From Thermoplasmata archaeon (GTDB taxonomy: Archaea; Thermoplasmatota; Thermoplasmata; Thermoplasmatales; GCA-001856825): 64,000 nt of DNA. The number at the start of each line of letters is the position of its first letter. Within the stretch, counting starts at the first letter, position 1. The stretch is taken from assembly GCA_021817415.1 (NCBI GenBank), contig JAKAUZ010000003.1, positions 124,001-188,000 on the forward strand. The letters run 5' to 3'. The position numbers and the translations under genes were made by a program. Under the pieces are notes generated by a model. It saw nothing but the letters and a program-made list of their open reading frames with translations, did not search any database and was not told the DNA's origin. Below, in pieces: positions 32,182 through 43,449 of the stretch.

Positions 32182-33441
32182 ATGAAATATTTCCAGTTAT
32201 TTATCGTGATTGCAGTCATCCTAGTCATGATCTCAATATTACCGACTGGCAATTCTTCTTCGAAGGCCGTAGTGATAATAAATTTCAACTACGCAGTGGA
32301 CCCCGGGGCGCAGGATTATTTCCAATCCTCCCTGCAGTTTGCTCAATCCAGTGGTGATCCCGTAATTATCTTGATGAACACTCCTGGAGGATATCTTGCG
32401 AATGCTTACACAATAGTAAATTACATTATAAACTCGGAGAAGTACGTCAACGTGACTACTTACGTCCCAACCGGAGGAATGGCCGCCTCGGCAGGCTCAT
32501 ATATTGCAATGGCTTCTGATTACATTTACATGGCTAACGCGAGTTTCATAGGGCCTTCAAAACCATACGTTATAGGGGGCACGGCTTCTGAAACTCAACA
32601 CGTAGTGAATGGCTCAATAGGAGAAATGGAAACTTTGGCAATTCTGCACCATAGAAACGTGGCTGCCTCTGTTTCAATGGTCGAGAACAACACGGTATAC
32701 AATGCATCAACCGCCGCCTCACTTGGAGTGATAAATGGAATTGAAGGCAATCTATCATCCCTGATGATTAAATTGGGTTATCAGGGTATGCAGCAGATCC
32801 AGGCCTATGAAAGTCCAATTCAACAATTTGAATCTTTCATATCTGACTCGACGGTGGCTGCTTTCTTCATACTCATTGGGGCCGTCGCAATATTGCTGGA
32901 TATTTATCACGGGTCAATTATTCTGAGCGTCGCAGGAGTTGCTTCGCTTGCAATAGGATTTTGGGGATCGAGTCTTATCAGCTTCTATCCCGTTTCCCTG
33001 TTATTTATAATCATGGGTGTCGTGCTTATATTTCTCGAGATTAAGCTGGGACACGGACTTGCAATGGTAGGCGGGGTATCACTCGTCATAATAGGGAGTC
33101 TGATAATGCAGGAGGGAGTTTCATTTTCATCTAACGTGAGTTACCTCAATGGTACCAGTTACCTGATAATCGCGTTCGAGGCAACAGTAATTCCAATTGG
33201 AGCGTTGTACCTCATAGGACTGAGGAAAGCCGTGATGAAAAAACCGCCGAAAGTGGGGACAGAGAGGTTCATAGGGAAAAACGGGAAGGCAGTGACTGAT
33301 ATCACTCCTGGAAAAAAAGGAGTTGTAAATGTTTTGTCAGAGGAATGCTCAGCAATTTCAGATGAAGAAATAAAGAAGGGGGACGAAGTTACAGTCACTG
33401 AATATAGAGAAGGAACCCTTGTGGTCAGGAAATCTTCTTGA
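32182..33441 (+). CDS. NfeD-type membrane serine protease (long form), catalytic Lys apparently replaced
   Basis: A 419-residue protein. A signal/anchor (1-22) leads into a ClpP-like protease domain with NTPGGYLANAY near residue 66 and GGMAASAGSYIAMAS near residue 98; S103 matches the nucleophile. At the position of the general-base lysine of the Pyrococcus 1510 protease, my alignment by eye gives H140 (SETQHVVNGS). Four to five membrane segments (about 215-345) and a C-terminal NfeD OB-fold follow. These proteases act on stomatin tails, and an SPFH gene lies near on the other strand. It may be a pseudo-protease. Confidence 0.88.
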   Translation: MKYFQLFIVIAVILVMISILPTGNSSSKAVVIINFNYAVDPGAQDYFQSSLQFAQSSGDPVIILMNTPGGYLANAYTIVNYIINSEKYVNVTTYVPTGGMAASAGSYIAMASDYIYMANASFIGPSKPYVIGGTASETQHVVNGSIGEMETLAILHHRNVAASVSMVENNTVYNASTAASLGVINGIEGNLSSLMIKLGYQGMQQIQAYESPIQQFESFISDSTVAAFFILIGAVAILLDIYHGSIILSVAGVASLAIGFWGSSLISFYPVSLLFIIMGVVLIFLEIKLGHGLAMVGGVSLVIIGSLIMQEGVSFSSNVSYLNGTSYLIIAFEATVIPIGALYLIGLRKAVMKKPPKVGTERFIGKNGKAVTDITPGKKGVVNVLSEECSAISDEEIKKGDEVTVTEYREGTLVVRKSS

Positions 33442-33844
33442 CCTTCAGGGTTACCTTGTCTTCCATTACTCTAACCACCTCTACATTTTCGTTGTCCTTG
33501 GTATCAGAGTCGGAAATGAAACTCCACTCTTCACTTTCAATTTGGACTCCTCCTCTCTGACCAGCAGGTACTCCCTTGGTAACTCTTCCTACCTGCCCTA
33601 CAACGCTGTCTGGATGGAAATATCTCTTCCTAATGTTCTTCACATTCGTCAGCCTGAACCCAATCAGTAAAATAGCAAAAATTATGTAGAACAGTATTGA
33701 AAGTGCAAGGATTGATGGTTGCTGCTGCCCAGAGGCAAAATATTCTATCAGTAGGAAAGTGGAGAATATAAAAAGGATTAACAAAACAAAAAAAGTTCTG
33801 AACCCGTACTTTGCGGTCAGCGTTGTTTCGGATTTATTGCTCAT
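33425..33844 (-). CDS. Short NfeD-like membrane protein (OB-fold domain)
   Basis: A 139-residue protein with two hydrophobic segments (about 15-35 and 45-62) and a C-terminal OB-fold of the NfeD type (VVGQVGRVTKGVPAG, GGVQIESEEWSFIS, ENVEVVRVMEDKVTLKV). It is the usual short partner of SPFH proteins and lies 14 bases after the SPFH gene in the same operon. It overlaps the end of the converging long NfeD gene by 17 bases. Confidence 0.88.
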   Translation of the reverse strand: MSNKSETTLTAKYGFRTFFVLLILFIFSTFLLIEYFASGQQQPSILALSILFYIIFAILLIGFRLTNVKNIRKRYFHPDSVVGQVGRVTKGVPAGQRGGVQIESEEWSFISDSDTKDNENVEVVRVMEDKVTLKVKKIS

Positions 33845-33858
33845 TAGCTCCAGATTGT

Positions 33859-34767
33859 TTACTCATTATTTGAGCTTACGTTTTTCAGATTTTGAGTGAA
33901 TGGTCGGAGCATTTCAGTGAATTCCATAGGGATAATGTATTTCGTAGACGTCCCTGATCCAAGCGATTTCAACATGTCCAGATATTGCAAGGCCATTGTT
34001 TTCTGATCTATTTTGCTCGCTGCATTGAATATGGTAGTCAATGCAAGTGCGTACCCTTCAGCCCTTAACACTGCTGCCTGCCTGTCACCTTCAGCTCTCA
34101 AAATGGCTGATTGCTTATCGCCTTCAGCTACTGTCACAGTCGCCGCCTTCTTACCCTCTGCCTCTGTTACGACTGCTCTCCTTGATCTTTCTGCGCTCAT
34201 CTGAAGTATCATTGCGTCGGACACGTTCTTTGGAGGCAATATCTCCCTAATCTCTACGTTTGTGACTTTTACTCCCCACCTAGTCGTTACTTCATCTAGT
34301 TTTGTCCTCAGGATTGCATTTATGTTTTCCCTTTTGGAAAGAACTTCATCGAGTATTATGTCACCGATTACCGCTCTTAAGGTAGTGGTAGCAATTCCCA
34401 TTGCAGCACCTTCAAAATTTTGTACCTGTATTACTGAGTCAGATGCGTTGATAACCTTAAAGTAAATGATGAAGTCAATGTCCACAGGAGCATTATCCTT
34501 TGTAATGCACGTCTGGTGGGGAATTGTCAGGAATCTCTCTCTGAGATCTACTCGAACCGGTACATCTATAATCGGATAGATGAATACTATTCCAGGTCCC
34601 TTTTCTGCAAGGGCTCTTCCGAACCTGAACACTACAATTCTCTGATATTCCCTAACAATCTTGATGGAGTAGAATAGAAAAGCAAGGAGTATGATTGCTA
34701 CCAGAAACAGCAGGACATCCTGCCCTGCTCCCAACTGGAGGGGTATAGCACCAAATGGTAAATTCAT
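33859..34767 (-). CDS. SPFH/stomatin-family membrane protein
   Basis: A 302-residue stomatin-like protein: one N-terminal membrane segment (about 15-38), the SPFH/band-7 domain (EYQRIVVFRFGRALAEKGPGIVFIYP, VDLRERFLTIPHQTCITKDNAPV) and a coiled-coil C-terminus rich in Ala/Glu (AEGDKQSAILRAEGDRQAAV). It should oligomerise into cage-like membrane microdomains. The end PMEFTEMLRPF resembles the C-terminal segment recognised by the NfeD protease in Pyrococcus. Operon with the short NfeD protein. Confidence 0.93.
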   Translation of the reverse strand: MNLPFGAIPLQLGAGQDVLLFLVAIILLAFLFYSIKIVREYQRIVVFRFGRALAEKGPGIVFIYPIIDVPVRVDLRERFLTIPHQTCITKDNAPVDIDFIIYFKVINASDSVIQVQNFEGAAMGIATTTLRAVIGDIILDEVLSKRENINAILRTKLDEVTTRWGVKVTNVEIREILPPKNVSDAMILQMSAERSRRAVVTEAEGKKAATVTVAEGDKQSAILRAEGDRQAAVLRAEGYALALTTIFNAASKIDQKTMALQYLDMLKSLGSGTSTKYIIPMEFTEMLRPFTQNLKNVSSNNE

Positions 34768-35624: not shown

Positions 35625-36011
35625 CTAGAGAGTGATTCCGCAGACTACTGCCATCAGCATTGGCAATATAATCAGAGTCATATATATAAGAGACAGCGGG
35701 TATGGGATATATTCGCTACTGTAAATGATTATCGTCCTAACGATATCGTATAGGACAGCTACAGGTATCAGCCCTGCAACGATGATTACCAACCTCCCTA
35801 ACAGATCCCCGGGCCTCCTTTTCAAGAGTGCCAGACCGGTAAATATCCCAATTCCTGCGACGAGCATAGGCAAAGAATCATAAAATGCAGCTGCCACGAA
35901 AGCTGATGGTGAAAAACCACCGGTAAACGCCAGGGTCAACACCCCTACAAGCAGGTCTAATGATGAAGCTGTAACCCCTAACGCTACGGCAATTTTGTGC
36001 CTAGTAGTCAC
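35625..36011 (-). CDS. Four-helix membrane protein, divergent from the P19-like operon
   Basis: A 128-residue protein with four hydrophobic segments (about 8-30, 48-64, 73-92, 103-126), beginning MTTRHKIAVALGVTASSLDL. No charged catalytic motif. It is transcribed away from the P19-like operon and shares with it a 91-base intergenic region containing the TTAGTAATACTAA palindrome, so the two may be co-regulated. Family not recognised. Confidence 0.7.
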   Translation of the reverse strand: MTTRHKIAVALGVTASSLDLLVGVLTLAFTGGFSPSAFVAAAFYDSLPMLVAGIGIFTGLALLKRRPGDLLGRLVIIVAGLIPVAVLYDIVRTIIIYSSEYIPYPLSLIYMTLIILPMLMAVVCGITL

Positions 36012-36057
36012 TATTGAAGAAGGTTTGAGTTTACTTAAAGGTTAGTTTTACATTTTT

Positions 36058-36070
36058 TTAGTAATACTAA
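36058..36070. promoter_or_regulatory. Palindrome TTAGTAATACTAA in a divergent promoter
   Basis: A perfect 6-base inverted repeat (TTAGTA/TACTAA) with a single central A lies between the 4-TM gene and the P19-like operon. Further TTAG half-sites lie beside it (GTTAGTTTT near 36039). It resembles the TTAGG half of the DtxR operator at 1069 without matching it. A CTTATTTAAG TATA-like element follows at 36071-36080, about 25 bases before the operon start. Regulatory role inferred. Confidence 0.5.
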
Positions 36071-36102
36071 CTTATTTAAGCGACACTAAGTATCTACAAC
36101 TG

Positions 36103-36831
36103 ATGGATAGTAGAATGGTGGATAGCAAGGGTAATCCCAGGAAACCACTGCTGGGACGAGCAGTTATCAGCTTTGTAATCGGAATCGTGATAGGCGCAGT
36201 CGCCGTATATGTAATTACAACTGATATAGGTCATTATTATCCTTCATCGAATATTTCGGGTTCCATCAAAATTTCACCTGGTATGAATGCGTCTGCGAAT
36301 TCAACGACAAATGACTTCGTAGTAATGCTTGTACTTGGGCCGCCTGCTTATATGATGAGTATTGGAGGGAACACGAGTTCGATGGCGTCGCAAAATGGGT
36401 CGATGACAGGAGGTGCTGAGTACATGTTGTCAGGACAGATGACAGATATTCCAATGGGAGATATGTACGCATTTCACCTTGAAGCTCACATATATGGTCG
36501 GAGCACGGGAAAAGTTGTCGTTATTCCGCCAAGCGAAGTGACAATCTCTGTCACAAACGAAAGCAACGGGTCAACGATTAACGTACCGATCGCCGTAATG
36601 TACGATCCGATGGTAGGGGTGCAAGACATCCATTACGGCAACAATATACTTCTGGGACCGGGAAACTTCACTATTCATGTGATTATAAGTGGCCAGTCGG
36701 CTGTATTTCATCTCCGGGTAGCGATGTCCATGGGTCAAGGTTCTATGAGCGTGATAGGAGAAGATGCACGAATTTCTAATGAATCGAACAGACCTATTTC
36801 AAGCACTGCTTCTGGTGGTAGATCGCAATGA
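36103..36831 (+). CDS. Membrane-anchored P19/Tp34-like iron (or copper) binding protein
   Basis: A 242-residue protein: cytoplasmic N-terminus of 20, one membrane anchor (about 19-40), and an extracytoplasmic beta domain. It matches the periplasmic P19/Tp34/FetP iron-transport proteins at the metal site: MYAFHLEAHIYG gives H125 and E127, and DPMVGVQDIHYGNN gives M170 and H177, with the same M-x6-H spacing as Met88/His95 of Campylobacter P19; GPGNFTIHV matches the following strand. Candidates for the last His are H192 and H203. Residues 60-120 are an inserted Met/Ser/Gly-rich loop. It overlaps the next gene by four bases. Confidence 0.72.
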   Translation: MDSRMVDSKGNPRKPLLGRAVISFVIGIVIGAVAVYVITTDIGHYYPSSNISGSIKISPGMNASANSTTNDFVVMLVLGPPAYMMSIGGNTSSMASQNGSMTGGAEYMLSGQMTDIPMGDMYAFHLEAHIYGRSTGKVVVIPPSEVTISVTNESNGSTINVPIAVMYDPMVGVQDIHYGNNILLGPGNFTIHVIISGQSAVFHLRVAMSMGQGSMSVIGEDARISNESNRPISSTASGGRSQ

Positions 36832-37262
36832 CTCCGAAATTCCTCAAAATATCTCGATACCTCTTGATGGCCGTTCTTCTGCTACTAATACTGCAATACG
36901 TACTGGGCATGATTGCGAACATTTATGCCACTCCCCCTTATGGTCCTTCTAACATAGGTGCTCATTACGTTATCGGTTATGTTGTGGCACTTGTTGGACT
37001 TATAACACTTATTTTCGTGGTCTTTTCCCGACAAGTAGGTGCAATTTCCTTTTCAGCTATAGGTTTCATATCCATCTTACTTGCAGGAGAATCAGGAAGA
37101 GGGTTTGCATTCCTCTCGCAGCACAACGGAGTGTACTCGCTGGCGATGGCTCTATTCTGGCTCTTATCCTTCAGTTCTTATTTCATTTGTCTGTTCTTAA
37201 TCACTCCCCATTCCCCTGAAAACCAAACAACAGATAAGGGGAAAGGTTTTCATGAAATCTGA
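36828..37262 (+). CDS. Four-helix membrane protein of the P19-like operon
   Basis: A 144-residue protein with four membrane segments (about 10-30, 46-66, 70-92, 105-126). The loop and helix ends carry potential ligands: NIGAHYVIGYV (H46), GRGFAFLSQHNGVYSLAMA (H100 region). The pattern, with a His near the outer edge of helices 2 and 4, is what a small heme-b or metal-relay membrane protein could show, but I recognise no family. Its start overlaps the P19-like gene and its end overlaps the next gene by 11 bases, so the three are one translational unit. Confidence 0.7.
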   Translation: MTPKFLKISRYLLMAVLLLLILQYVLGMIANIYATPPYGPSNIGAHYVIGYVVALVGLITLIFVVFSRQVGAISFSAIGFISILLAGESGRGFAFLSQHNGVYSLAMALFWLLSFSSYFICLFLITPHSPENQTTDKGKGFHEI

Positions 37263-37872
37263 CCCAAATAAATCAGCCTGGAACACCATATCGAGAGATA
37301 TAAAACTTGGAGTTTATCTGGTACTTATCATATCTACAGGTCTTTTCGGGATCGTAGTGGGATACATTATCTACCTGGAAGCAACGAATAGCCCTGTTCC
37401 AGCGTTGTCTGATTTCCCTCCCTTCGTAGTCAGTCTCTTGATCATTGGTCTCTCCTCCATAGCTATTTCTGTATACATGTCGACTAGGAAAGAATCCACG
37501 CATTCGGACGTTCTTGGTTCCCTATGGATTCTGGTCCTTCTGCCGATGTCAGTTTCCCTCTTTAATGACTATACTTCTGTAGATCTGCTCCCCATGGTGT
37601 TGATAGTCGTTTCAGCATTGCTGTTGTGGAGGGGAAACAGGAACATGAAATGGTTTTTACCAACTGGCATCATTATAGTTGCATGGTTTTTGTTTGATCC
37701 TCTCAACCACACAATTGATTACTTTTTGCTATCGTCAGGCTTGTCTGGGGCAGGGATCGTCCACGAGGGGGCCCAGCTTGCACTTCAACGCGCATTTTAT
37801 GACTGGTTGAGACTGGCATATTTTATTGCGGTCTACGTTGCTACTCTGCGCTATAAACCTTCTCATCCTTAA
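37252..37872 (+). CDS. Six-helix membrane protein of the P19-like operon
   Basis: A 206-residue membrane protein with about six hydrophobic segments. Polar residues in or near the last helices (PLNHTIDYFLLSSG, GIVHEGAQLALQRAFYDWLRLAYF) include His and Glu that could bind a metal. No FTR1-type RExxE permease motif is present, so it is not a classical iron permease. It ends the operon. Unrecognised family; possibly the translocating subunit. Confidence 0.7.
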   Translation: MKSDPNKSAWNTISRDIKLGVYLVLIISTGLFGIVVGYIIYLEATNSPVPALSDFPPFVVSLLIIGLSSIAISVYMSTRKESTHSDVLGSLWILVLLPMSVSLFNDYTSVDLLPMVLIVVSALLLWRGNRNMKWFLPTGIIIVAWFLFDPLNHTIDYFLLSSGLSGAGIVHEGAQLALQRAFYDWLRLAYFIAVYVATLRYKPSHP

Positions 37873-38271: not shown

Positions 38272-41200
38272 ATGTCTAAAGGCGTTGGGGCACATGCTGG
38301 TCTGGCAATTATTTTAATAGTCCTCCTAGTGTTTACGAATCTTTCTTCAGCTACCAGCATTTCGGGTCCTGCAGGAAATGCAGTAGAAACGCAACCAATT
38401 CCAAAGGGAAATCCAATCCAGTCAAGCCCTGCTCCGAATCCAAACTCCCCTGTTTCTGCTATGGTGGGGAATATATCTACAACAGGGCCTTCTTACATGA
38501 TTTTATACGACAGTATCCTGAATCTTACATATGCTCTGTCTCAATCGGGCATCCTATTTGTGGTAGCTGACTCTACAGATTCAGTTATTGCAAACATATC
38601 GGTTGGAACAGGGATCACTGATATGATTTATGATCCTTCAAATGGATTCATCTATCTTTCTGGCCCTAGATTATCGAGCATTACGGTGGTGTATGGAACT
38701 TCAGTTATCTCTTCAGTTTTTATTGGCTTTAACACATATCCAACTTCAATGATATACGACCCAGAAAATGAGTATGTATTAGTCGCATACACCTCATTCC
38801 TCACAGGATTTGTGGCTTTTCCAGAAATTGCAGCGATCAGCGGAACTCAAATAATCAATTTCTGGTCATATGGGGGCCAGCCTTCATATTCCATCGGCAT
38901 ATTTTCAAACAACCAATATTTCGTGCAGAACCTGACTTATAATCCTTCAAACGGTAACGTTTATGTCTCAAACGAACAGATGGGCGTCGTTGCAATCTAT
39001 GGTGAGCAAGCCCTAATAACTGTCTTACCAGACCCCGTCTCAATGATTTTCGACCCAGCAAATAGCCTCATCTATGTTGCTTCTTCCTCCGGTGCGATCC
39101 AGGCGATCGATACTCTAGGGGTCATTGTGGCAACAGTTCCAGGAATACTTGGAAGTTCCTTCTCGCAGACTCCATTCCTATTCGACCCAGCCAATAATGA
39201 CCTGCTGTTGTTCAATGAATCCGGGAACATGATATTTGTACTGAATTCTTCGAATGTAGTTGTTGCAAACATCAGCGATGGCACACCAACAAATGGTATT
39301 TATGATCCCGCAAACAGGTTGGCTTACGTTGGAAGCGTCAATAATAACTATGTAGTGGGAATTGACGCCAACCTTCAAATTCAGTACGACTTTACTATAC
39401 TCCCCAATGTTCTGACCGGAACTGCGAGTATGTCACTTGGGCAGAATGCGATGGAAATCTATCTTGCCAATTCCAATGTAAATTTCATTACCGTCATAGG
39501 CAGCAACGCTTATCCAGTCTACTTTTACCCTGTGGGATTGCCAAAGAATACTTCATGTGGGGGCAGGGTCGGATGGTCTGTTTCACTTGGAGGAAATTTT
39601 AAGACCAGTGGACCTACCAGCATAGAATTCCTTGAGATCAATGGGAGTTTCAGCTATTATTCTGCATCATCAGGGTTTGCGGCATCACCGGGTGCTGGCA
39701 CAGTAAATGTGGCCGGTGAACCAGTAAACGTTTCGATAAATTTCACCGTTTCAGACACTTTTGAAATCCAATCGCAACTGAGCCTCTCAGGTATATTCCT
39801 GAAGAATTTCACCCTTGATAATCTCGTCGAACTGCATCTAGGGATGGGCCCAGAAAGACCCTACAGCGTGACCGCAGTCAATGGGGCATCATCCTATCCA
39901 TTCAACGAAACAAATTGCTCACAGGGAATCTATCAGGCTTCCATAGATATGGGCTCATTAACTGGGAACTCAATTGAAATCATTGCAGATTACAATAACA
40001 CGACTCAAACCAGGAACATTTCAATAAATATGGTAAATGAGCCACTATGGCTGCAGTCCATGATGTCAATAGGTTTTGATAACGTTATGCAGTCGAACTA
40101 CCAGTGGAACAACACATACACAATTTACGTGGGCGACACCTTCCCATTCTTGAGCTTATTCGGTCAGAATGTAAACATACCAATGATTGGGGGGCAATAT
40201 GGATTTTTCCCCAACGTGGACTCTTCCCTTTTAATAAACTCGAATGGCAGCATACTGATGAATGCACACATAGCCTCCCCGAGCATATCCATTGCAGGTA
40301 TCAGTACAAACTCAATTCCAGGACTGCCTATCACATTTTCACTCTCGCTGACAGGACAATTCACAGTGAATAATGGGAACGTTATCTGGACGTCATCTAC
40401 AATGACAGTGAGCGTCTCAGGATCAGTTTCCATCCCGATTCCAATAGTTGGATACAGTTTCAACGTTCCTGACGTAGGATCGGTGAATATAGGTCTCAGT
40501 GTCACTATAACCGTGGCACCGACATTTGTGCTGGACCTGGCACTTGCACCATCTAATTCTTCTTCCTCACAGTTTATAGCAAATCTGGATGTTATGATTA
40601 CCAGCATCACCTCCCAAATCAGTATTGCAGTCTCAGCAGCCCTTAACGCTGGAATAGGTGTTGCATCAATCTCAGGGGGAGGTACCCTTACATTTAACAT
40701 AAATATGAGCATAATCCCATCCCCTCTCACCATAGGTGGGAATGTGCAGGGTTCACTTTTTGTCAACTGGAATGCACTTATCTGGTCAGGTACTATCTGG
40801 ACGTCCGGTGCATATAACTTATTCAGCTGGGGCCCTACAACGCTCTCTCACATATCACGAATAACATTTAATTCCACAAAGGGGAACGCTTCAAATTTCA
40901 CTCTCACCCCAAGATATTACAACACTTCAAATTATCAAAGTTACAGGTGGGTGAACGGTCAGTGGAATGGGACGGCAATAAATGACGTATACCCCTACGC
41001 TAGATTCACATCTGCCTCCTCCAATAACAGCACTTACGTGCTCTCTTCATTTGACAACGTCTCGCTGAATGAGAGACATGGACTTGGTATCCGCATCTTC
41101 CTTTCAAATTCAACCTCAAGGAATTTGACCAATCTTCCGGAACCAAGGGAGAATGGGTTCATTATCACCAATCCAGAGGCGATAATGCTTGAAAATGGGA

Positions 41201-43449
41201 GCCTGGGAGTCCTGTGGATAGCCGTTCCATACAATGGTACCAACGTCTCTAACCCTTTCTCAGTGACAAATATACTTCTCCAATACTCCATTTTCAATAC
41301 AAGCACCTGGAGCTGGTCAAAACCAGATAATATTACCACGTCAGGAATTGCCAACTCATATTCCATCGCCCAGCTGGGCGGAACCATATACGTAATCGTG
41401 CTGTGGAGCAGCAATTCCACATCTTCCCCTTACCTCGCAGAATTTGCAATATCTAAGTACCTCATCTTTGCTTCTCACAGTGACGTGGTTTACTCCACAC
41501 TTAACATGTCCCTTTCAGGTGCAAGCAACATAGTATCATTCAAAATCGAAAAAAATGGGTTCCAGAACATACTGGTACAGTTTGAGAATGGCAGTTACGG
41601 GATACTTGGATTTAGGCCTGCGGTAATTGGCCCTCCCTCAGTGGTTCGGATAGTTCAACTTCCTTCATTATATGGCTATTCAATAAAACAGGCTGGACTT
41701 GCATCAAATTCCACTGATATTCTCTTTGTACTGTATACTAACGGATCGTACGGAGACATATTTGTTGCCTACAATATCTCAAACCTGTCATCCCCTGTGT
41801 TCATCAGCAATCTTTTCATGCACCTCCCCGTATCCACGTCCTCCGTAAGGATGATTTATGGAAATAAGACGAGCTTCGTTGGAGTCTCCATCCTGGATCA
41901 GACAAAATACCTTGACAAGCTGCAGATATTCTGTCTAGGTACTCTTCCAGGATGGAAGTCCAAGCCTGACGTACGAAGTTTTTTCAATTTCACGGTGAAT
42001 ATAAGGAACATCACTTATTTCAACATTGAAAAGACAGACAATGCAGTACTATCCTATGCAATGAGCAATTATGGAAATATGAGCAGGCCCACTATGAACC
42101 TTGTCCTGACTTATAATGCAATAACACCTCCTCCATCACCGATTCTGCAGATCACCAATTATAACCAGAGGGAAATTTCCTTGAACTGGTCGGTGCCAGG
42201 TGGATCTGAATACAGTATCCAGAGATATTTGCTTAACTCATCCCTGGACGGGCACCCCTACTCTTCCGTGATACTTCCAAACAATACCACTGATTACAGC
42301 TTCCAGGTGGGGAATGGTGGCAGCTATAAGTTCTGGGTATATGCAATAGATCCATTTGGAATGAGCCAGAGATCAAATTTCGCCTCAATCACTTATTACA
42401 ATGCAACTTTTGTGGAGACAGGTCTCCCATCTGGAGAGCTGTTTCAGGTGGACCTGAATGGGACCCTGAATTCTGGTACGACGAAGGTTGTATTCTCTGT
42501 TACTAACGGGACCTACTCATTCAGGGCCTCCTCCAACGGGTCAATGAAAATAAATCCATCATTCGGCAGAATATCAATACAGGGATTCCCGGTCACAACG
42601 TATATATTCTTCACCATTAACAGTTCTTATCTAGTGAATTTCACTGAAACTGGCCTTCCAGCAGGGTACAAATGGTCACTAACGAACGGTGCTGGCACTT
42701 ACTCGTCAACTTCGCAGCACTTATCACTGTATCTTTCCAATGGTTCTTATCCAATCTCCTTCTCGGCTGCAAAATATACGGCCTATCCAGGTTCGCTAGT
42801 CATAACGGTAAATGGAACAATGCAGAGTCACATGATAACATTCGCATCACCTTCCACCAGTGTTTACAATATAACATTTTTTGAGTCAGGGCTCAAAAGG
42901 GGGACGCAATGGGGTATTTTCTTCAATGGGGTTCTCAGCACATCCGCACGCAGCTTGATAAGTGTGTATGAACCAGATGGGTATTACAGCTTCACAATCC
43001 AGCAAATTACCGGTTACTCCTCAACTCCTCTTGGCGGCAATATCACAGTGAATGGAGGGAACGTATTTCAGAATATCACTTTTTCAACAAGACAGGTTAT
43101 TCTTGATCTGACATTTATCCTGACTGGGATAAATTCAGGCGCTTCGTGGTCCGTCACTGTTGGAAACAGGACAATGCAATCGTCTTCTCTTAACATAACA
43201 TTCCTACTCCCTTCCGGAACATACAATTACACTATCTCTCCTCCTAAGGGATATGGGGCAAATATAACTAAAGGAACAGTCGACCTGACTGTAAACAAAA
43301 CGATATACATAAAAGCATCAAAATCAGTTTCATCACAAGGAATCAATCCGTGGTACTACATAATCCCAGTGATAATCATCTTTCTAGCACTGAATGCGAT
43401 AGCAGCAGCAATGCGGATGCGGAGAAGTGGTAAGGATAAGACGACCTGA
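38272..43449 (+). CDS. Giant surface-anchored protein: beta-propeller, FN3 and ETGLP repeats
   Basis: A 1725-residue exported protein. Signal peptide at about 8-28; a six-bladed-type propeller (about 60-410) with blade motifs MIYDPSNGFIYLSG, LTYNPSNGNVYVSN, MIFDPANSLIYVAS, GIYDPANRLAYVGS; one divergent repeat (about 417-490); a large beta-rich middle with many NxS/T sequons; an FN3-like domain (about 1284-1375, REISLNWSVPG); four tandem repeats of about 77 residues starting near 1377, 1455, 1532 and 1610 (FVETGLPSG, FTETGLPAG, FFESGLKRG, FILTGINSG); and a C-terminal membrane anchor at about 1694-1713 with a basic tail. Likely an adhesive or protective cell-surface glycoprotein; the cells of this order have no rigid wall. 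Confidence 0.88.
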   Translation: MSKGVGAHAGLAIILIVLLVFTNLSSATSISGPAGNAVETQPIPKGNPIQSSPAPNPNSPVSAMVGNISTTGPSYMILYDSILNLTYALSQSGILFVVADSTDSVIANISVGTGITDMIYDPSNGFIYLSGPRLSSITVVYGTSVISSVFIGFNTYPTSMIYDPENEYVLVAYTSFLTGFVAFPEIAAISGTQIINFWSYGGQPSYSIGIFSNNQYFVQNLTYNPSNGNVYVSNEQMGVVAIYGEQALITVLPDPVSMIFDPANSLIYVASSSGAIQAIDTLGVIVATVPGILGSSFSQTPFLFDPANNDLLLFNESGNMIFVLNSSNVVVANISDGTPTNGIYDPANRLAYVGSVNNNYVVGIDANLQIQYDFTILPNVLTGTASMSLGQNAMEIYLANSNVNFITVIGSNAYPVYFYPVGLPKNTSCGGRVGWSVSLGGNFKTSGPTSIEFLEINGSFSYYSASSGFAASPGAGTVNVAGEPVNVSINFTVSDTFEIQSQLSLSGIFLKNFTLDNLVELHLGMGPERPYSVTAVNGASSYPFNETNCSQGIYQASIDMGSLTGNSIEIIADYNNTTQTRNISINMVNEPLWLQSMMSIGFDNVMQSNYQWNNTYTIYVGDTFPFLSLFGQNVNIPMIGGQYGFFPNVDSSLLINSNGSILMNAHIASPSISIAGISTNSIPGLPITFSLSLTGQFTVNNGNVIWTSSTMTVSVSGSVSIPIPIVGYSFNVPDVGSVNIGLSVTITVAPTFVLDLALAPSNSSSSQFIANLDVMITSITSQISIAVSAALNAGIGVASISGGGTLTFNINMSIIPSPLTIGGNVQGSLFVNWNALIWSGTIWTSGAYNLFSWGPTTLSHISRITFNSTKGNASNFTLTPRYYNTSNYQSYRWVNGQWNGTAINDVYPYARFTSASSNNSTYVLSSFDNVSLNERHGLGIRIFLSNSTSRNLTNLPEPRENGFIITNPEAIMLENGSLGVLWIAVPYNGTNVSNPFSVTNILLQYSIFNTSTWSWSKPDNITTSGIANSYSIAQLGGTIYVIVLWSSNSTSSPYLAEFAISKYLIFASHSDVVYSTLNMSLSGASNIVSFKIEKNGFQNILVQFENGSYGILGFRPAVIGPPSVVRIVQLPSLYGYSIKQAGLASNSTDILFVLYTNGSYGDIFVAYNISNLSSPVFISNLFMHLPVSTSSVRMIYGNKTSFVGVSILDQTKYLDKLQIFCLGTLPGWKSKPDVRSFFNFTVNIRNITYFNIEKTDNAVLSYAMSNYGNMSRPTMNLVLTYNAITPPPSPILQITNYNQREISLNWSVPGGSEYSIQRYLLNSSLDGHPYSSVILPNNTTDYSFQVGNGGSYKFWVYAIDPFGMSQRSNFASITYYNATFVETGLPSGELFQVDLNGTLNSGTTKVVFSVTNGTYSFRASSNGSMKINPSFGRISIQGFPVTTYIFFTINSSYLVNFTETGLPAGYKWSLTNGAGTYSSTSQHLSLYLSNGSYPISFSAAKYTAYPGSLVITVNGTMQSHMITFASPSTSVYNITFFESGLKRGTQWGIFFNGVLSTSARSLISVYEPDGYYSFTIQQITGYSSTPLGGNITVNGGNVFQNITFSTRQVILDLTFILTGINSGASWSVTVGNRTMQSSSLNITFLLPSGTYNYTISPPKGYGANITKGTVDLTVNKTIYIKASKSVSSQGINPWYYIIPVIIIFLALNAIAAAMRMRRSGKDKTT

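Follow-up and report, generated by a model that had tools for sequence, protein, structure and literature searches.

A divergent, putatively surface-anchored P19-like protein and its dyad-bearing promoter in an archaeon related to Thermoplasma

Most known P19-type proteins come from bacterial pathogens and act there with FTR1 permeases. Here we describe a divergent P19-like protein from an archaeal relative of Thermoplasma that is predicted, from its lineage, to be acidophilic. As a whole, the best explanation of the locus is that this protein is a surface copper- or iron-binding P19 variant that belongs, as an optional component, to an envelope regulon, a reading in which our confidence is about even. 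The protein would be exposed on the outside of the cell membrane, hold a soft or borderline metal through H125, E127, M170 and H177 together with nearby methionines, and buffer or donate metal at the surface, not serve as the substrate-binding part of a permease formed by the two membrane proteins (B and C) encoded downstream. The latter would have an envelope function of their own, probably separate from that of the P19-like protein. The arrangement of the genes, profile-based family membership, the ligand pattern, the loss of P19 where A, B and C are retained, and the distribution and spacing of the dyad are observed; how the protein is exported, whether and which metal it binds, translational coupling and the regulator are what we infer from sequence. 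An anchored archaeal P19 that lacks FTR1, belongs to a lineage of acidophile type and stands behind a lineage-specific promoter would uncouple the domain from transport by FTR1.

The locus and its P19-like protein

The window (the whole 64,000-nt stretch that was analyzed) corresponds to C48:124001-188000 of the host genome, G000 (2.03 Mb, 89% complete). Based on the list of open reading frames and on the letters themselves, the locus comprises four genes, a divergent gene A and then an operon of overlapping P19-like, B and C genes (Table 1). The stop codon of the P19-like gene and the ATG of B overlap as ATGA, and B and C overlap by 11 nt; the P19-like protein would be translated first from a leaderless polycistronic message, with translational coupling to B and C. 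The coordinates and reading frames of the preliminary description were correct on recheck, as were its accounts of two overlapping polytopic genes completing the operon, hydrophobic peaks being present in both, and of a divergent gene with about four transmembrane (TM) segments. For C, a low-confidence model placed extra helices beyond the four strong peaks. Elsewhere in the window, positions 38272-43449 encode a surface protein of 1725 aa that is rich in sequons, has a TM segment at its C terminus and belongs to no Pfam family. At 32182-34767, an NfeD1b-type protease gene is convergent with two others, one for a stomatin-like (Band 7) protein and one for a small NfeD protein.

Table 1. Coordinates of the features of the locus, of relic genes and of dyad-associated features in related genomes. 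Locations are positions in the window unless a locus (L) is named.
Feature	Location	Strand	Description
Gene A	35625-36011	-	128 aa, hydrophobic, ~4 TM; opposite orientation to the P19 operon
TATA-like box of A (putative)	36032-36040	-	CTTTAAGTA; ~25 nt from GTG start, leaderless spacing
Inverted repeat (dyad)	36041-36071		GTTAGTTTTAC-N9-GTAATACTAAC; between A and the P19-like gene
TATA-like box of P19 operon (putative)	36072-36080	+	TTATTTAAG; ~27 nt from ATG start
P19-like gene	36103-36831	+	242 aa: TM anchor (20-38), Met-rich stalk with many glycosylation sequons, PF10634 domain
P19-aligned region	36469-36702	+	Residues 123-200, with H125, E127, M170, H177
Gene B	36828-37262	+	144 aa, 4 hydrophobic peaks, 4-TM
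Gene C	37252-37872	+	206 aa, polytopic; four strong hydrophobic peaks
P19 relic ORFs	L003 10386-10600; L025 8715-8740		Stop/start overlaps leading to B
Dyad sites, other loci	L086 180-206; L087 4537-4563		
Dyad sites at ~1501-1527	L090, L096, L098, L099, L100, L092, L097		
Winged-helix/STAND fusions	L086 1159-3381; L100 1766-3027; L092 1765-3027; L090 2501-3027		
PadR-type regulators	L097 1549-2466; L076 1823-2863		Methyltransferase-like C-terminal part

By sequence criteria, the P19-like protein belongs, as a divergent member, to the PF10634 (P19/Tp34) family, with a score barely above the cut-off. The match covered residues 124-198 at 22.1 bits (gathering cut-off 21, E = 1.9e-4), the gene scored 22.4 bits in a genome search with PF10634, and NCBIfam returned no match for the protein. 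Against a comparison set of four bacterial P19s (C. jejuni and three plasmids, from Azospirillum, E. coli and Pasteurella), hhalign gave E = 1.3e-4 with a probability of 54%. When the exported part was shuffled 10,000 times, the real score against the bacterial P19 profile was never equalled. Identity to the bacterial proteins was 23-26%, and pairwise BLAST was weak (E 0.017).

Five residues, H42, E44, M88, H95 and H132 (numbered as in 3LZL, position plus two), were invariant in the bacterial P19 alignment, and these are established metal ligands of the P19 family. The first four correspond in the alignments to H125, E127, M170 and H177, and both motif blocks, HLEA and then PMV-x5-HYG-x-N, occur in the right order. 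The P19/Tp34 arrangement previously proposed for these four residues stands, and so does the M-x6-H spacing, which is identical to that of bacterial P19 in the alignment. A counterpart of H132 is absent, its loop being shortened or missing, and H192 and H203 did not align with it. A single-sequence AlphaFold model was all-beta and poor (pLDDT 46, pTM 0.51); in a PDB fold search with this model 3lzl appeared at rank 39 with probability 0.30, a ranking that carries no meaning.

The protein contains a single hydrophobic segment, preceded by basic residues, and the exported part of 200 residues has nine N-glycosylation sequons and 7.4% Met, the Met-rich insertion recognized earlier being present as an N-terminal stretch. 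Among 44 long ORFs, just two large proteins, those richest in sequons, equalled this density. Its TM anchor and downstream sequons together predict an extracytoplasmic protein.

The gene is single copy in G000, and in a PF10634 search of 390 Thermoplasmatota genomes its product was the sole match; a joint P19 profile across Thermoplasmatota likewise recovered this protein alone, besides chance-level matches. Closer P19-like relatives were not found in two genome-collection scans, a phylum profile search, or plasmid and phage searches, and only one intact sequence of this protein was found. Haloferax volcanii, a control genome and the one by which its phylum was covered, carries a PF10634 protein, and archaeal members of PF10634 as such are therefore not new. 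In a limited full-text search of partial literature, no paper on archaeal P19-type proteins was found.

The presence of P19 with FTR1 is a known arrangement (PMC6083913; PMC8238504; PMC11966278). With the P19/FetP/FtrA proteins (C. jejuni P19, 3LZL; E. coli FetP; Bordetella and Brucella FtrA) the protein described here shares the PF10634 domain, the motifs, the four candidate ligands and predicted export, but it has an N-terminal TM anchor and a Met-rich stretch that is putatively glycosylated, has no H132 loop, is without FTR1/FetM, thioredoxin, FMN or ABC partner genes, and sits beside membrane proteins of unassigned family. Surface lipoproteins of PF10634, Tp34 (2O6C, the 34 kDa antigen of T. 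pallidum) among them, are anchored and outward-facing, as is predicted for the P19-like protein, and the joint profile finds the P19-like protein, which, unlike Tp34, is archaeal, TM-anchored rather than lipid-anchored, and far more diverged in sequence.

Persistence of genes A, B and C without P19

None of A, B and C matched a transporter family in Pfam or NCBIfam, A had no Pfam family at all, and a PDB search with B gave no match. Orthologues of B and C were present in two genomes of the same taxonomic family as G000 (84-85% in G004, 72-78% in G014), both of which also have an A orthologue at the same divergent place. Gene C was found only in these three genomes; C-profile matches in 78 other genomes were taken as chance because they were short and weak and the one examined (L077) fell at a DNA polymerase II small-subunit ORF. 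Weak A-profile matches elsewhere (E 4e-4 to 9e-3) were also taken as chance. A paralogue of A lies in G000 at C68:1405-1800. Homologues of B, about 30% identical, occur in many Thermoplasmataceae beside unrelated genes, and none had a metal-linked gene context. Among 11 B homologues G27, N31, H46 and G90 were invariant, H46 being the only invariant His. Assignment of B to cytochrome b561, CtaA or LspA was rejected, as scores were far below curated cut-offs. When the window was compared with L003 and L025, A of G000 was closer to that of G014, and B and C were closer to those of G004, discordant distances that suggest recombination at the locus.

In both G004 and G014 the genes A, B and C are intact and the P19 gene remains only as relics. 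Values of dN/dS for A, B and C between species were 0.13-0.27, indicating purifying selection, and 0.20-0.33 once the A paralogue was compared. The G004 gene is mostly deleted, with its start and 56 3' codons left; the start survives as MDSARVEKWRIL*, ATGA-overlapping a 63-codon ORF that ends with about the last 37 codons of P19 and has its stop on the B start. The relic in G014, ATG-GAT-AGT-GAA-GGT-TCT-CAA-TGA, retains no more than P19 codons from the two ends of the gene, and this ORF (MDSEGSQ*) also has its stop on the B start. That the relic ORFs keep their overlap with B would fit translational coupling on a leaderless message. Purifying selection still acts on A, B and C where P19 is a relic, so B and C work without P19, rendering a three-part metal importer doubtful. 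PF10634 and profile searches found no P19 in other Thermoplasmatota genomes having B, and B and C are not co-conserved with P19, which they outlast.

The preliminary description had cast A, B and C as partners in a metal system, a proposal that did not survive these comparisons: all three persist under selection where P19 has been lost, the Thermoplasmataceae homologues of B stand outside any metal-linked context, and the second G000 copy of A is away from P19, B and C. The pattern of P19 loss is a warning against equating gene overlap with a functional complex.

The dyad promoter element

The arms of the inverted repeat between A and the P19-like gene (36041-36051 and 36061-36071) are 10/11 complementary, and the dyad is conserved in G004 and G014. 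Together with the flanking TATA-like boxes, it looks like a head-to-head leaderless promoter pair with a common regulator site. Archaeal promoters of the known bidirectional, leaderless kind (BRE plus TATA, with dyad operators) have the same head-to-head TATA about 25-27 nt from the starts and a dyad between, whereas the consensus described below, TRGTWTTAC-N9-GTAAWACYA, was found in one Thermoplasmatales family only.

In a first genome scan allowing up to three mismatches the dyad was not above control, though the best sites were at promoters. With the tighter consensus, one mismatch allowed and the reversed pattern as control, 14 sites were recovered in the family of G000, spread over seven of its 15 genomes (2 for the control), and a single site in the 46 Thermoplasmatales genomes from outside it (2 for the control). 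Because the consensus was drawn from G000, G004 and G014, their sites are not independent; independent sites came from G001, G006, G012 and G013. A start codon (ORF of at least 40 codons) was located 36-48 nt downstream of 23 of the 28 family half-sites, nearly always at 39-42 nt, as compared with 14% of random positions, and the relic P19 starts in G004 and G014 are also 42 nt from a dyad half-site. We regard TRGTWTTAC-N9-GTAAWACYA as a family-specific promoter element, newly recognized here. The shared palindrome of the preliminary description is real and stands between A and the operon, and it appears to be a general envelope-gene promoter element and not a metal box.

Further dyads were located between genes for a secreted beta-helix protein (PF13229, 38 bits; NosD under cut-off) and a 200-aa membrane protein with H-x6-WTGIDLFMG. 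Other dyads precede genes for CopD/HemJ-like 4-TM proteins (weak UPF0093 and Urate_ox_N matches), and one precedes a PadR-type regulator gene. Judging by hhalign (E 4.4e-5), the 200-aa family is probably related to the CopD/HemJ-like one, while A, B and C had no homology to the other dyad-controlled membrane proteins, nor A to B. The divergent promoters of A and of P19-B-C share a 27-nt dyad that would mark a family-specific envelope-protein regulon, and the element yields a short list of putatively co-regulated envelope genes, a direct route to testing the response of the set.

The right-handed beta-helix/200-aa membrane protein pair was conserved as a divergent pair at L090, L096, L098, L099 and L087, with WTGIDLFMG invariant and no Pfam family for the 200-aa protein. 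One of the two PadR-type genes in Table 1 has the dyad in its own promoter and the other, at C68:1826-2863 of G000, is beside the A paralogue; their products are candidate dyad regulators. Dyad sites also commonly adjoin genes in which an ArsR-like winged helix is fused to a STAND/AAA ATPase, and TPR repeats are present in one of these fusions.

Candidate functions and metal handling

Copper binding by the P19-like protein is a tentative proposal, somewhat short of an even chance, and iron binding is unlikely. Low pH weakens histidine as a ligand but leaves thioether ligands functional, and acid water is rich in Fe2+; on these grounds we rank copper above Fe2+.

Several other readings of the locus were weighed against the same observations. 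That P19, B and C form a single Fe2+ or Cu importer, with a B/C channel replacing FTR1 and the exported domain capturing the metal and passing it on, would accord with the two gene overlaps, the common promoter, the failure to find FTR1 in the genome and the side-by-side position of bacterial P19 and permease genes at the three plasmid loci that were read, but the selection on A, B and C in the relatives lacking P19, the other Thermoplasmatota genomes that have B and no P19, the B homologues elsewhere without metal context and the failure of A, B and C to match any transporter family make it quite unlikely. The importance of metal itself would be removed if the protein were an Ig-like beta-sandwich stalk or adhesin that resembles P19 and belongs to a glycosylated surface gene set. 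The marginal PF10634 score, the resemblance of the poor model to generic beta-sandwiches, the wealth of envelope proteins in the dyad regulon and a sequon density as high as in the adjoining 1725-aa surface protein all point that way; however, the PF10634 cut-off was passed, the protein is Met-rich and both motif blocks occur in order with four candidate ligands, and we judge this reading unlikely.

FtrA of Rubrivivax has reportedly been proposed to have a copper-dependent ferroxidase role. Oxidation of Fe2+ by Cu2+-FtrA is described in a report quoted in PMC11966278, and the P19-like protein could by analogy be a copper-dependent surface ferroxidase or electron-transfer module with B as its membrane redox partner. 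The weak similarity of B to b561/CtaA (E 0.02-0.1), its one invariant His and the CopD/HemJ-like products of other dyad genes are consistent with such a role, but the similarities of B lie far under curated cut-offs, H46 is a lone invariant His and B does not need P19, so that we consider this improbable. A family-specific copper-handling envelope regulon, in which P19-type, CopD/HemJ-like and NosD-like proteins are switched by a PadR or winged-helix/STAND regulator and P19 is optional, is to our minds similarly improbable. Our preferred reading is still that of a surface metal-binding P19 variant, optional within an envelope regulon.

No FTR1-type permease (PF03239) was found beside the P19-like gene, as the preliminary description had said, or in the 89%-complete genome. 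FeoB_N matches were present in the genome search and may represent GTPases other than FeoB. Furthermore, no metal-repressor box was found in the P19 promoter, whose dyad is unlike the palindrome AATTAGGT-CT-ACCTAATT. The latter stands at ~1070-1087 of the window, directly before genes for a DtxR-type regulator and an NRAMP transporter (1096-2915), and is likely the metal-repressor (DtxR) site of this genome. The two genes likely form an autoregulated Fe/Mn uptake unit, and NRAMP with the DtxR-type regulator would provide the ordinary Fe/Mn route in this genome.
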